Below, in pieces: positions 16,754 to 55,182 of a stretch of DNA of 64,000 nt (positions within the stretch are counted from its first letter, which is position 1; every line of letters starts with the position of its first letter). Below the pieces are notes generated by a model. The model saw only the letters and a program-made list of their open reading frames with translations, ran no database searches and had not been told where the DNA came from. The position numbers and the translations under genes are program-made. Source of the DNA: Mariprofundus aestuarium (GTDB taxonomy: Bacteria; Pseudomonadota; Zetaproteobacteria; Mariprofundales; Mariprofundaceae); contig NZ_CP018799.1 of assembly GCF_002795805.1 (NCBI RefSeq), positions 1,915,001 to 1,979,000 on the forward strand, in the 5' to 3' direction.

Positions 16754-16830
16754 TGGCGGAGCGGACGGGACTCGAACCCGCGACCTCCGGCGTGACAGGC
16801 CGGCATTCTAACCAACTGAACTACCGCTCC
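16754..16830 (-). tRNA. tRNA-Asp (GTC), copy 1
   Basis: 77 nt including encoded CCA. The 5' GGAGCGG pairs with CCGCTCC, the anticodon loop is CTGTCAC (GTC), and the T-loop is GGTTCGAGTCC. Sequence identical to the copy at 16997-17073. It lies 24 bp after tRNA-Val copy 1 with no terminator between, so the pair is probably co-transcribed. Confidence 0.97.
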
Positions 16831-16854
16831 ATAGTGGTGATCAGTTTTTCAAGA

Positions 16855-16930
16855 TGGTGGGCGCTGCAGGGTTCGAACCTGCGACCTACGGCTTGTAAGG
16901 CCGTTGCTCTCCCAGCTGAGCTAAGCGCCC
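16855..16930 (-). tRNA. tRNA-Val (TAC), copy 1
   Basis: 76 nt with encoded CCA. The acceptor stem GGGCGCT pairs with AGCGCCC, the anticodon loop is CTTACAA (TAC), and the T-loop is GGTTCGAACCC. Identical to the copy at 17174-17249. Confidence 0.97.
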
Positions 16931-16966
16931 ATCTTCAGCAGAATACAAATGCACCCTGCTGGTGTT

Positions 16967-16992
16967 AAAAACGAGCCCCCTCGAAGGGGCTC
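16967..16992 (-). terminator. Terminator after tRNA-Asp copy 2
   Basis: GAGCCCC/GGGGCTC stem with a short CTCGAA loop, followed on the minus strand by GTTTTT. It separates the two tRNA pairs, implying a separate promoter for the downstream pair. Confidence 0.8.
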
Positions 16993-16996
16993 AAAG

Positions 16997-17073
16997 TGGC
17001 GGAGCGGACGGGACTCGAACCCGCGACCTCCGGCGTGACAGGCCGGCATTCTAACCAACTGAACTACCGCTCC
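16997..17073 (-). tRNA. tRNA-Asp (GTC), copy 2
   Basis: 77 nt, identical to copy 1, with encoded CCA and anticodon loop CTGTCAC. Its own terminator follows directly (16967-16992), and another terminator (17136-17169) precedes it on the minus strand. Confidence 0.97.
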
Positions 17074-17135
17074 AGCGGCAGGGGCGCAAAGTAATAACTT
17101 ACTCCCCTAAAATCAACTAATAATATGTTGATAGG

Positions 17136-17169
17136 AAAAAAGGCTCCGCATAAGAAACACAGAGCCTTT
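17136..17169 (-). terminator. Terminator after tRNA-Val copy 2
   Basis: AAAGGCTC/GAGCCTTT inverted repeat with a 15-nt loop, followed on the minus strand by six T. It lies five bases after the 3' end of tRNA-Val copy 2. Confidence 0.75.
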
Positions 17170-17173
17170 AAAA

Positions 17174-17249
17174 TGGTGGGCGCTGCAGGGTTCGAACCTG
17201 CGACCTACGGCTTGTAAGGCCGTTGCTCTCCCAGCTGAGCTAAGCGCCC
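17174..17249 (-). tRNA. tRNA-Val (TAC), copy 2
   Basis: 76 nt, identical to copy 1, with encoded CCA and anticodon TAC. It lies 56 bp downstream of the hupB stop, after a weak hupB terminator, and could be reached by read-through from hupB. Confidence 0.97.
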
Positions 17250-49326: not shown

Positions 49327-49354
49327 TTGACATCAACCACCCCCAACTTATAAT
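49327..49354 (+). promoter_or_regulatory. Consensus sigma-70 promoter of rplM-rpsI
   Basis: TTGACA at 49327-49332 and TATAAT at 49349-49354 are both perfect consensus, separated by 16 bp. Transcription is expected to start near 49361, giving a ~60-nt leader before rplM. Confidence 0.9.
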
Positions 49355-49376
49355 GCGCCGCCCTTGCACGGTAGAC

Positions 49377-50937: not shown

Positions 50938-52664
50938 TAAACACCTTAAGGCACATCCCTGTTATTCTGCTCTGTGCTTTTGCCCTGCTTGCATGCGGCA
51001 TCCAGAAACCGGCCAACCAGAATCAGGTCAGCAAAGGTGACTCGGATAGCCAGCAGCAACAGATGGAACAGATGGAGCCGAAATTTCTCTATCTTGCAGC
51101 CCAGAACGCCCTGAAGGATGGCAATCGTGAACTGGCCAGCCAGCTCCTCTCTGCACTGGTCACCAAAGACCCGGACTCAATTGTGCCGCACATCCAACTG
51201 GCCGAACTGCTGCTTCAGCTTGGCCACACAGAGGAAGCAGAGAAACAGATTGCGCTGCTGCTGAAAAAAAACCTACAGAAAGACGATCATGAGAAACTGC
51301 TACTCTCCCAGGCTCGCCTGAGTGTCTCCAAAAACGAGCAAGCCAGAGCACTCGAACTACTGGATGAGCTATTCAAGGAGAACCCGATCAACCTCCGCGG
51401 TCGCGAATTGCAGGCGCTCATCCTCTCCGACCAGAATCGTCTTGCCGAAGCACTGACCGCCATCAATGAATCCATTCAAGTGGAGGAGATTGCGGAACTT
51501 CGCCTGCTGCAAGCCCAACTTCTCCTGAAACAGCATGAAAACAGGGCAGCTGAGGTGGCCCTGCAGCGCATACGCAAACTGGTTCCTGATAATGATACGG
51601 CTGTACTCATGCAGAGCAGCATCGCTCTGCAGGAAAATGACCGTGGCAAGGCTGAAGAGTTGCTGCGCGACTTCCTCAATGAGTACCCTAATGCAATGCG
51701 GGTTGGTCATGCGCTAGGCAAGATAATGGTTCAGGACAACCGCATTGCAGAGGCGATCATCATTTACCGCGATATTGCAAGCCGCTCCGGCGATAGTCCG
51801 GAGATCCTGAAAACACTTGGCATGCTTTACTTCCGCTATAACGATTTTGAAGGGGCAGAGCAGACATTCAGAAAGCTGTTAAACACCCAGCCGGATGATC
51901 ACAACCGCTTCTTTCTCGCGGCCAGCCTTGAGGCACTGAAACGTCCAGATGAGGCGAAGGAGATCTACGAGTCCATCAACCCGGAAGGCACGATGGGGAA
52001 TGATGCACAGGTTCGTCTTGCTGGCATTGACTTCAGAGAAGGCAACCTGAGGGAAGCCCTGAGCCTGTTGAATCACCTCTTAAAAACAGACCCGCAGCAC
52101 ACAGAAGCACAGCTGATCCGTTCAGCCATTCGCCTTGCCAATGGACAGTACAAGTTACTGCTTAAGGAGACGGAGGCGATGCTTTCCATGGATAAAGTGC
52201 ACCCCCAACTGCTCTTTAACCGGGCTGTCGCCTTTGACCACCTGAAAAGTTACGATCAGCTCGAAGCAGTGTTGACGCGGCTTCTCAAAAGTAACCCTGA
52301 GCACTCTGAAGCCATGAACTTCCTGGGATACTCCTATGCAACCCAGGGGATTCACTTGGACAAGGCGGAACTGTTAATCAATCAGGCCCTGAGCCTTAAA
52401 CCGGATGACGGCTATTACCTCGATTCCCTGGCCTGGGTTTACTATCAGCGAAACGAATATGACAAAGCGCTGGAAACCCAGAAAAAAGCGATCGCAAAGA
52501 TCGGCGATGATCCGGTCATGTATGAGCACCTCGGTGACATGCTCTGGAAAACAGGCGATTTTCCCGCAGCACGCAATGCCTGGAAAAAGTCCATTGAACT
52601 GAAGGCCGACACACCTGAAAAGCTCAGGGCAAAAATCGCCAACGGATTGGAAAACGACAGATGA
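50934..52664 (+). CDS. TPR lipoprotein upstream of lolB
   Basis: 576 aa. Lipoprotein signal MINTLRHIPVILLCAFALLAC with lipobox LLAC (Cys21), then about a dozen tetratricopeptide repeats through the whole length (e.g. AEALTAINESIQVEEIAELRLLQAQLLLKQ; EAMNFLGYSYATQGIHLDKAELLINQALSLKPDDGYYLDSLAWVYY). Such TPR lipoproteins next to lolB and ispE are common in Proteobacteria and probably scaffold envelope complexes. Outer- versus inner-membrane location is not decided by the sequence. Coupled to lolB by an ATGA overlap. Confidence 0.85.
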   Translation: MINTLRHIPVILLCAFALLACGIQKPANQNQVSKGDSDSQQQQMEQMEPKFLYLAAQNALKDGNRELASQLLSALVTKDPDSIVPHIQLAELLLQLGHTEEAEKQIALLLKKNLQKDDHEKLLLSQARLSVSKNEQARALELLDELFKENPINLRGRELQALILSDQNRLAEALTAINESIQVEEIAELRLLQAQLLLKQHENRAAEVALQRIRKLVPDNDTAVLMQSSIALQENDRGKAEELLRDFLNEYPNAMRVGHALGKIMVQDNRIAEAIIIYRDIASRSGDSPEILKTLGMLYFRYNDFEGAEQTFRKLLNTQPDDHNRFFLAASLEALKRPDEAKEIYESINPEGTMGNDAQVRLAGIDFREGNLREALSLLNHLLKTDPQHTEAQLIRSAIRLANGQYKLLLKETEAMLSMDKVHPQLLFNRAVAFDHLKSYDQLEAVLTRLLKSNPEHSEAMNFLGYSYATQGIHLDKAELLINQALSLKPDDGYYLDSLAWVYYQRNEYDKALETQKKAIAKIGDDPVMYEHLGDMLWKTGDFPAARNAWKKSIELKADTPEKLRAKIANGLENDR

Positions 52665-53212
52665 CTCCGAGGGTGGCAGGCGGAACACGCTTTCTGCAAC
52701 TAGCGACACTGCTCATCACAGTTGTAATCGCATCGGGGTGCGTTAAACAACCCTTATTGATCCCTGCTGAACCTGCAACCATCGGCCCTTACAGTAACTT
52801 CTCCGCTCGCCTGATCGCAATCGAACCCAAACGCCGATGGCAGGTGATACTGCAGTGGCATGCCGACACCCCTGAGAGGGGGGATCTTCGACTTACGCAT
52901 GCAGCCTCGGGCACAATCGTGGAGTTCCGCTGGTTTGGTAAGCGGATGCAGAGCCGCGACAACCACTCCCGGCTGTGGAAAGAGGTCGATGCCGCACAAC
53001 TGGCTACTCAGGGTATGGTCATCCCACCGCAACAACTAGCCTCCATTCTACTGGGGGAAATGCCTAACCATTTCATTGAAAAGAAACCGAACCTTTGGGA
53101 AAGCAGCGCCTCAGGTAGCCTGATACGACTGCAGTGGAAAGCCTCCTCGAAGCAGCTGACGATGACCGACACCAAACATGGCCGGCAGGTCAAACTGTTG
53201 ATTCAACCATGA
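52661..53212 (+). CDS. lolB: Outer-membrane lipoprotein receptor LolB
   Basis: 183 aa. Signal and lipobox LITVVIASGC (Cys27), then a single beta-barrel-like domain. RRWQVILQWHADTPERGDLRLTHAASGTIVEFRWFG is compatible with LolB strand patterns. Direct identity is weak; the call leans on size, lipoprotein nature and position immediately before ispE, where lolB usually lies. LolB receives lipoproteins from LolA and inserts them into the outer membrane, which would serve the several lipoproteins in this window. Overlaps ispE by four bases. Confidence 0.72.
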   Translation: MTPRVAGGTRFLQLATLLITVVIASGCVKQPLLIPAEPATIGPYSNFSARLIAIEPKRRWQVILQWHADTPERGDLRLTHAASGTIVEFRWFGKRMQSRDNHSRLWKEVDAAQLATQGMVIPPQQLASILLGEMPNHFIEKKPNLWESSASGSLIRLQWKASSKQLTMTDTKHGRQVKLLIQP

Positions 53213-54099
53213 AAGTCTTACTGCCGGCACCTGCCAAGATTAACCTGCACCTGTTAGTCACCGCCATCCGCGATGATGGCATGCACGAGCTGGACACCAG
53301 CTTCGCCTATACAGATATCTGTGATGAGCTGGAGATCGAAACCTGCGACAGCCTTAAGGTAAGCTGCTCGAACCCTCACCTCTCCGGTGAAAAAAACCTG
53401 GTCTTTAAACTGCTCGATGCATTCAGGGAGCAGTATGGCATTACACGCGGGCTTTCGCTGCACATCATCAAACGTATCCCGGAGCAAGCAGGACTCGGCG
53501 GCGGCTCCTCCGATGCTGCAACAGCACTGCTGGCGGCCAACCATATCTGGGGGGCGAATCGCCCACTGCAGGAGCTGATTACTTTTGCCACTCCATTCGG
53601 AGCCGATATCCCCTGCTTCCTTTACGGCAGGGCCAGCTGGGCACACGGCGGCATCGGAGAAAAGTTATACGATTACCCGAATCCATTGCCACAAAGGGCT
53701 CTACTGCTGGTCTGGCCTGGCATGGGGCTCGCAACCAGCGAGGTGTTCCGTCACTTCGATCACGATATCCACACCGGGCATCGCACATTGACCCAGTCGG
53801 GGGCGGTGGATACCATCCGCGCCGATTCAGTCAGCCTCGGGAGAAATGATCTCGAAGGCAGCGCATGCAAGCTGAGTCCGGAGGTTTCACAGCTGCTGTA
53901 CAGGCTGCGCAACTATTCGGAAACAGTATGGATGAGCGGAAGCGGCTCAACATGCATCGCCCTGTTTGATGATGATGAACAGGCTAGAGCAGCATCTGAG
54001 CGGTTGAAGATGCAGAACCCGACATTCTGGACATTTGTTGGCAGCATGCAGAGCAGACATCCGCTTGAACAAAAATATTGGGACGTAGCCAAGCGGTAA
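53209..54099 (+). CDS. ispE: 4-diphosphocytidyl-2-C-methyl-D-erythritol kinase
   Basis: 296 aa from the ATG at 53209 (ATGA overlap with lolB). GHMP kinase: PAPAKINLHLLV with Lys10, the ATP loop IPEQAGLGGGSSDAA around residues 90-104, FGADIPCFL, and MSGSGSTCIALF near the C-terminus. It phosphorylates CDP-methylerythritol in the non-mevalonate pathway. The last six residues (WDVAKR) and the stop are encoded inside tRNA-Gln: codon 291 begins exactly at the tRNA 5' nucleotide. Confidence 0.95.
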   Translation: MKVLLPAPAKINLHLLVTAIRDDGMHELDTSFAYTDICDELEIETCDSLKVSCSNPHLSGEKNLVFKLLDAFREQYGITRGLSLHIIKRIPEQAGLGGGSSDAATALLAANHIWGANRPLQELITFATPFGADIPCFLYGRASWAHGGIGEKLYDYPNPLPQRALLLVWPGMGLATSEVFRHFDHDIHTGHRTLTQSGAVDTIRADSVSLGRNDLEGSACKLSPEVSQLLYRLRNYSETVWMSGSGSTCIALFDDDEQARAASERLKMQNPTFWTFVGSMQSRHPLEQKYWDVAKR

Positions 54100-54153
54100 G
54101 GCAGCGGGTTTTGATCCCGTCATGCGCAGGTTCGAATCCTGCCGTCCCAGCCA
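54079..54153 (+). tRNA. tRNA-Gln (TTG)
   Basis: 75 nt with encoded CCA. The acceptor TGGGACG pairs with CGTCCCA, the D-arm is GCCAAGCGGTAAGGC, the anticodon loop is TTTTGAT (TTG), and the T-loop is GGTTCGAATCC. The first 21 bases are also the last seven codons (stop included) of ispE. A seven-T run begins two bases after the CCA and could cause partial termination before prs. Confidence 0.97.
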
Positions 54154-54225
54154 GTTTTTTTAGCAGAACCTCGATAGAAGTGATCGGCGACCGCTTACAC
54201 TATCGAACAGAGGAGTGTTCACACC

Positions 54226-55182
54226 ATGGTCTACGAGAAACTGCGGCTTTTTTCAGGCACTTCCAATCCACCGCTTGCGCATTCAATCTGTGAGCATATT
54301 GGTAAGCCACAAGGTGAGATTTACACCCAGCGCTTTTCAGATGGTGAGATATTCATCCAGGTTAAAGAGACCATTCGCGGCCTTGATGCATTCTTTATTC
54401 AGAGCACATCCTCCCCTGCCAACGATAATCTGATGGAGCTGCTGATCTTTATCGATGCAGCCAAGCGTGCCTCCACGCGCAATATCTGCGCTGTTATCCC
54501 CTACTTCGGCTATGCACGCCAGGACCGAAAAAGTGCCGGGCGAACCCCTATCTCAGCCAAACTCGTTGCAGACCTTATCTCCCGTGCCGGTGCAACACGC
54601 GTTTTGACGCTCGATCTTCACGCTACCCAGATTCAGGGTTTTTTTGATATTCCTGTGGACAACATCTTTGCCATTCCGCTGTTTGCCAAGGATATCGAAG
54701 AGAAAAATGCGCTCATGGACGATGTCATGATTGTATCTCCCGATGTGGGAGGCGTAGTTCGTGCCCGTGCACTGGCAGCTCGCCTGCATGTGGATATGGC
54801 GATTGTTGATAAACGTCGCCCTGCTCCGAATGTTGCCAAGGTGATGAATATCATCGGTGATGTAGAAGGAAAACACTGCATCCTGATTGATGATATGGTT
54901 GATACAGCCGGCACATTGTGTGGCGCCGCCGAAGCACTGATTGAGAAGGGTGCAACCAAGGTCAGCGCCTATGCATCGCATGGCGTTCTCTCCGGCCCCG
55001 CTGCAGATCGCCTTGTGGAATCGAACCTGCACGAACTGGTGATTACCGACAGTATCCTGCAACCACAGAGGATCCTGGATACCAACAAGGTTCGCACCAT
55101 CTCCATCGCTCCCCTGATGGGTGAGGCAATCACACGTATTTACGATGCCCGTTCAATCAGCAGCCTCTACGAGGACAGCTGA
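54226..55182 (+). CDS. prs: Ribose-phosphate pyrophosphokinase
   Basis: 318 aa. FSGTSNPPLAHSICEHIG start, FSDGEIFIQVKETIRG, PYFGYARQDRKSAGRTPISAKLVADL (flexible loop with Arg/Lys), DLHATQIQGFF, and the PRPP-binding IDDMVDTAGTLCGAAEAL. It makes PRPP for purine, pyrimidine, His and Trp synthesis. The ispE/tRNA-Gln/prs order is conserved in Proteobacteria, but rplY and pth, usually next, are displaced by 4 kb. Confidence 0.96.
   Translation: MVYEKLRLFSGTSNPPLAHSICEHIGKPQGEIYTQRFSDGEIFIQVKETIRGLDAFFIQSTSSPANDNLMELLIFIDAAKRASTRNICAVIPYFGYARQDRKSAGRTPISAKLVADLISRAGATRVLTLDLHATQIQGFFDIPVDNIFAIPLFAKDIEEKNALMDDVMIVSPDVGGVVRARALAARLHVDMAIVDKRRPAPNVAKVMNIIGDVEGKHCILIDDMVDTAGTLCGAAEALIEKGATKVSAYASHGVLSGPAADRLVESNLHELVITDSILQPQRILDTNKVRTISIAPLMGEAITRIYDARSISSLYEDS

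Follow-up and report, generated by a model that had tools for sequence, protein, structure and literature searches.

The gene for CDP-ME kinase (ispE) of Mariprofundus aestuarium runs into the gene for tRNA-Gln(UUG) on the same strand and ends there, which raises the question of how an essential mRNA is kept intact when maturation of the tRNA would be expected to cut off its stop codon. The locus was analyzed within a stretch of 64,000 nt (hereafter, the window, whose positions are used below) of a genome that consists of a 2.54-Mb single contig and has its relatives in the Zetaproteobacteria, family Mariprofundaceae. The features at the overlap are as follows.

53209–54099, + strand: ispE (CDP-ME kinase), 296 amino acids, with the stop codon within the tRNA gene (open reading frame, NCBIfam and Pfam)
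54079–54153, + strand: tRNA-Gln(UUG) (ARAGORN, Rfam RF00005 and folding)
54079–54099, + strand: 21 nt shared by ispE and the tRNA, coding for WDVAKR and for the stop UAA (tRNA nucleotides 19–21, D-loop)
54078/54079, + strand: expected RNase P site between ispE codons 290 and 291 (tRNA 5′ end by ARAGORN; cleavage predicted)
54226–55182, + strand: prs (ribose-phosphate diphosphokinase), 72 nt downstream of the tRNA

The reading frame, a genuine ispE by its NCBIfam and Pfam matches, consists of 296 sense codons between an ATG at 53209, which overlaps the stop of the upstream reading frame, and a TAA at 54097–54099. The tRNA matches Rfam RF00005 with 67.2 bits, its strand is predicted to fold into a cloverleaf, and, of the 47 tRNAs in the genome, it alone has a UUG anticodon, the other Gln tRNA being CUG. 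Codon 291 of ispE begins at tRNA nucleotide 1 (54079), and from there the frame continues TGG GAC GTA GCC AAG CGG TAA; this geometry, described in an earlier note on the same DNA, was confirmed by the sequence, ARAGORN, Rfam, and folding. The stop codon of ispE is borrowed from the adjacent tRNA-Gln. The genome carries RNase P RNA and tmRNA, and an Rfam search near the locus found no RNA family besides the tRNA-Gln. The earlier note also reasoned that RNase P cleavage of a two-gene transcript would separate codon 290 from codon 291 and so take away the ispE stop, and this argument is supported, with cleavage as its predicted step. The downstream prs probably shares a transcript with tRNA-Gln. 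A run of seven T directly follows the CCA of the tRNA (GTTTTTTTAG, 54154–54163), and an inverted repeat CGATAG...CTATCG, not called as a terminator, is located between this run and prs; attenuation of prs by these elements is possible. Elsewhere in the window (16754–17249, minus strand), a tRNA-Asp/tRNA-Val pair is duplicated in tandem.

The overlap recurs throughout the class. When ispE and its 3′ flank were fetched across the Zetaproteobacteria (n = 72 genomes) and each stop was placed relative to tRNA-Gln, it fell within the tRNA in 49 of the 72 (UAG at tRNA nucleotides 8–10 in 34 and UAA at nucleotides 19–21 in 15), a share of the class that exceeds chance. In the other 23, several of them from the same genus, the stop lies 0–69 nt ahead of the tRNA. 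None of the 72 zetaproteobacterial genes uses the third frame, in which translation would continue through and past the tRNA for a median of 37 codons (13–94). Parsimony on an IspE tree built with the tail removed requires at least 15 switches between overlap and gap, and 21 among the three states; well-supported branches alone require at least six. Close relatives with a stop before the tRNA, which the earlier note held to speak against its reading, exist even within one genus, and the state flips often; the note's reading is in part refuted on this point. Outside the Zetaproteobacteria, ispE/tRNA-Gln overlaps of 2–23 nt were found in several proteobacterial families and in one Omnitrophota genome.

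Overlap −21: L047, L229, and L238 (Pseudomonadota)
Overlap −10: L138
Overlap −23: L158 (Burkholderiaceae)
Overlap −2: L128 (Curvibacter)
Overlap −10: L126 (Omnitrophota)

Most tRNAs offer a ready stop in one frame near the 5′ end, as UAG occupies nucleotides 8–10 in 27 of the 47 tRNAs of this genome. A second overlap was observed in the same genome, where a DUF2155 gene (L067:6102–6644; genome C1:592701–593243) has its TAG 23 nt inside tRNA-Arg(ACG). A candidate promoter of this tRNA (TACTCT-TCGCCCGC) lies within the codons of ‘ITLRP’ of the DUF2155 gene; a TANNNT-plus-GC site is kept there in 23 of 24 relatives, and this overlap has also been gained and lost. As for the product of ispE, where relatives have a stop of their own, the enzyme terminates shortly past H284-P285, and the alignment with solved IspE structures reaches only about residue 270. 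On the basis of both comparisons, the WDVAKR tail is an addition created by the overlap, and IspE requires nothing beyond about residue 288.

To locate the promoter of the tRNA, a two-box matrix was derived from the tRNA leaders of the genome, leaving out tRNA-Gln(UUG) and tRNA-Arg(ACG). Most tRNAs that are first in their unit score 12–26 in this matrix, their boxes being TTGACA and TATNNT, followed by a CGCGCC-like discriminator. A promoter directly before tRNA-Gln was rejected; its 100-nt leader scores 1.2, a background value like those of the inner members of tRNA clusters. From 49500 up to the tRNA, the matrix scores highest at 53788–53825, inside ispE, with 12.6 (a score of 12 is reached by 1.5% of random 100-nt stretches).

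53788–53823, + strand: predicted promoter P_in (−35 TTGACC, 53788–53793; 17-nt spacer; −10 TACCAT, 53811–53816; discriminator CCGCGCC)
About 53823–53825, + strand: expected start of the P_in transcript
53824–54078, + strand: predicted 5′ leader of RNA started at P_in, some 254 nt from the ispE coding region that lack its start codon

P_in is also the sole match of a plain consensus scan, and its GC-rich discriminator is like that of the other tRNA promoters of the genome. It is most likely, judging from these sequence signals, that tRNA-Gln has its own promoter within ispE.

P_in occupies the same codons in all 72 zetaproteobacterial ispE genes. TTG, the 17-nt spacing, and TANNNT are each present in 72 of 72, and TTGAC at 17 nt in 71 of 72, counts whose significance is overstated by the inclusion of related genomes; the share of TTG in the other Leu columns of ispE is 8–43%. 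The −10 is always written xxT-ANN-NTN while the encoded residues drift (DTI, AKV, ATV), with Asp/Ala/Val at the first position, Thr/Lys/Ser/Asn/Arg/Ile at the second, and Ile/Val/Met/Leu at the third. In a redundancy control with 43 representatives of <70% identity, TTG was found in 43 of 43 (expected, 10.6) and the −10 T likewise in 43 of 43 (expected, 20.4). Only at codons 194 and 201 is the third base 100% fixed, one Met/Trp-type column aside. Two observations count against P_in: the −10 of Zetaproteobacteria is often TACCAT (4 of 6), and single genes do not stand out from shuffled versions. Synonymous shuffles scored by the plain consensus were as good in a median of 86 of 200 per zetaproteobacterial gene, i.e., not significant; the result of this comparison is weak in the class and stronger outside it. 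Since single-gene scores are ordinary relative to shuffles, the case for P_in is built on position-wise conservation and not on strength. The DNA-level constraint at P_in appears to exceed that on the protein, and the separate tRNA promoter inside ispE, which the earlier note had named in passing, emerges as a prediction strongly supported by comparative evidence. A dedicated tRNA promoter is also what the note listed first as refuting its own reading, and P_in is a predicted instance of it.

About 100 non-zetaproteobacterial IspE loci, picked by protein similarity alone, were surveyed by motif-anchored and whole-gene promoter scans. Upstream of tRNA-Gln, a P_in-like site (‘LTRN’ in IspE, TTGACA in the DNA) is also present in Gamma-, Beta-, and Deltaproteobacteria, Nitrospirae, and others. 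With tRNA-Gln downstream, 42 of 62 loci have their best-scoring consensus promoter within ispE at the place of P_in, versus 4 of 34 without it (one of these four, L045, ends at a contig edge), and a P_in-type site is absent from 20 of the 62. Phylogenetic pairing of the site with the tRNA-Gln neighborhood gave only five usable pairs and did not establish an association. The ‘LT’ codons are TTG-ACA in 41 of 46 non-zetaproteobacterial ispE genes with tRNA-Gln, where 1.9 would be expected from the gene’s own usage, and these loci include genomes of 60–71% GC. Independently, a blind search for the bare DNA pattern was run on 398 genomes of the phylum; it matched 19 times, whereas the reversed pattern, used as a control, matched twice. 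Twelve of the 19 are within ispE, 298–398 nt ahead of tRNA-Gln(UUG); one is in a long same-phase reading frame with an LTRD motif, for which no tRNA was found, and one precedes tRNA-Asn. The other five are a repeated element of one genus (L232–L236), in which TTGACAAGTAA..CTCAAAAT lies inside short reading frames encoding ‘LTSN...LKIHC’ and which is probably a conserved promoter with a different target. Overall, we consider it fairly probable that an ancient tRNA-Gln promoter written in ispE codons shapes the enzyme, ‘LTRN..I(T/K)(I/M)’ being the footprint of TTGACA-N17-YAMAAT that persists across proteobacterial classes, Nitrospirae, and others, and is mostly absent without a tRNA-Gln neighbor.

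The source of the ispE mRNA itself was surveyed in the upstream region.

49327–49363, + strand: strong promoter TTGACA-N16-TATAAT-GCGCCGCC before rplM-rpsI (tRNA/r-protein type, matrix scan)
52661–53212, + strand: lipoprotein-like reading frame at the place of lolB, whose end overlaps the start of ispE (ATGA)

After rplM-rpsI follow an MPN-domain-like reading frame, a TPR protein, the reading frame in the lolB position (which has no family match in NCBIfam/Pfam), and ispE, with overlapping starts and stops; from 50374 to ispE, the reading frames are joined by ATGA-like overlaps. The rplM-rpsI promoter is a candidate for the upstream source of the ispE mRNA, and its operon may extend as far as ispE.

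The reading that we prefer, and in which we have good confidence on sequence grounds, is that ispE lives on a borrowed stop, with tRNA-Gln mainly supplied from its own ispE-embedded promoter and the overlap tolerated. The overlap, its recurrence, and the conservation of the promoter sequence are seen directly in the genomes, while promoter activity, RNase P cutting, and rescue are predicted. A promoter of the stable-RNA type, located about 260 nt ahead of the tRNA, would be the main source of tRNA-Gln(UUG) and probably also of prs; the P_in transcript would begin near codon 206, would not be an ispE mRNA, and would have its leader trimmed by RNase P. The full ispE mRNA would originate further upstream and enter the tRNA for want of a terminator or stop before it. 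Ribosomes would terminate on the D-loop UAA (UAG at nucleotides 8–10 in relatives), and later folding and cutting of the tRNA part would yield a nonstop ispE message, from which tmRNA would probably rescue late ribosomes. The ispE mRNA has no way around the tRNA, so its processed copies would be nonstop, and because termination is possible before folding and cutting, one transcript could give both IspE and the tRNA; the claim of the earlier note that a transcript yields either the tRNA or IspE, but not both, is unsupported, as ribosomes can reach the D-loop UAA and terminate ahead of tRNA folding and cleavage. Having its own promoter, tRNA-Gln would be independent of the ispE mRNA, and with IspE needing nothing after about residue 288, the gene’s own stop would be cheap to lose. 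The fixed UAG/UAA of the tRNA would then serve as a backstop, and the overlap would be gained and lost repeatedly. The stable-RNA type of the promoter suggests that tRNA-Gln (and prs) may track growth rate independently of ispE.

Four other explanations were weighed against this. A selected coupling, in which tRNA-Gln is cut from ispE mRNAs and its maturation limits IspE by nonstop decay, linking isoprenoids to tRNA output, agrees with the overlap geometry, with the lack of a terminator or stop between the two genes, with the presence of RNase P RNA and tmRNA, and with the promoterless immediate leader of tRNA-Gln, and the same idea has been put forward for selB/selC (Mukai 2021, PMC8124441). 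The conserved internal promoter, however, would give the tRNA a supply of its own, 23 of the 72 relatives avoid the overlap, the state flips often, and IspE has no functional tie to tRNA-Gln; we regard the coupling as unlikely, and regulatory coupling as a function, suggested in the earlier note, finds no support. Repeated gain and loss, together with the use of the two short frames only, are more in keeping with a borrowed stop that is tolerated than with a switch under selection. Equally unlikely is that the internal promoter serves prs and the tRNA is merely in the way: prs is within about 80–300 nt in most loci, but L119, L126, and L149 have the site and tRNA-Gln with no prs match within the fetched flank, L050, L056, L086, and L087 have prs without tRNA-Gln and lack the site there (L102 being an exception), and the discriminator is of the stable-RNA type.

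Plain co-transcription, with a promoterless tRNA-Gln cut only from ispE-prs readthrough RNA and the LT motif being a feature of the IspE protein, would suit the compact order ispE–tRNA-Gln–prs and the modest best consensus scores in Zetaproteobacteria. It has difficulty with a TTG codon and a third-base T that are fixed while the amino acids drift, with the occurrence of TTG-ACA in GC-rich genomes, which seldom use either codon, and with the outcome of the blind search, and is judged quite improbable. Finally, an artefact of the start codon or gene call, the true ispE being shorter or the reading frame a pseudogene, could appeal to the WDVAKR tail, which plays no role in the IspE fold; the frame is, however, intact, with conserved residues to H284-P285 in relatives, and 49 genomes have no earlier stop, so that its probability is close to nil.

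With the borrowed stop as the preferred reading, most of one bacterial class appears to end an essential gene on the stop of a tRNA, and the nonstop cost of tRNA processing becomes testable. The embedded promoter would stack protein, promoter, and tRNA information on one strand. If LTRN is a promoter footprint, the conservation of residues in an antibacterial drug target has its reason in the DNA, and knocking out or recoding ispE will disturb the supply of tRNA-Gln.

Among known systems, the locus most invites comparison with the selB/selC (tRNA-Sec) overlaps of Alpha- and Gammaproteobacteria and Nitrospirae, for which the nonstop-mRNA idea was proposed (Mukai 2021, PMC8124441); in Dyella/Luteibacter, the selB stop is inside tRNA-Sec, and in close relatives a stop upstream of the tRNA has been regained (PMC8124441). 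Both cases have a same-strand reading frame running into a functional-looking tRNA that contains its stop, and both are recurrent, with some relatives stopping before the tRNA. SelB and tRNA-Sec are functional partners, whereas IspE is a CDP-ME kinase and not a partner of tRNA-Gln, and the locus therefore resembles the selB-selC system without being filed under it. In addition, the ispE stop is at tRNA nucleotides 8–10 or 19–21 and not 46–48 as in selB/selC, nesting of a whole tRNA is not seen, and ispE is predicted to contain a promoter for the tRNA. Animal mitochondria, as far as they are covered by the work cited in PMC8124441, also have tRNA genes overlapping protein genes, where RNase P-type cutting removes the mRNA end; those overlaps are explained there by genome compaction and tRNA punctuation, whereas the present one is on an ordinary 2.5 Mb bacterial chromosome. 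P_in shares the −35, 17-nt spacer, −10, and CGCGCC-like discriminator with stable-RNA (stringent-type) sigma-70 promoters, but unlike them is wholly inside an essential reading frame and written in codons. The Escherichia coli prs promoter reportedly lies inside the upstream ispE (Hove-Jensen and co-workers), and is thus likewise a next gene’s promoter located in ispE, at a different place; a promoter-like site at that place, about 190–215 nt before the ispE end, is seen in gammaproteobacteria with prs but no tRNA-Gln (L050, L056, and L087). A literature search on ispE-embedded promoters (ispE/ipk/ychB-prs) found no relevant open-access paper, and subscription journals may hold reports. New here relative to these systems are the extent across a whole class, the stops carried by a tRNA, and the predicted dual-coding promoter.
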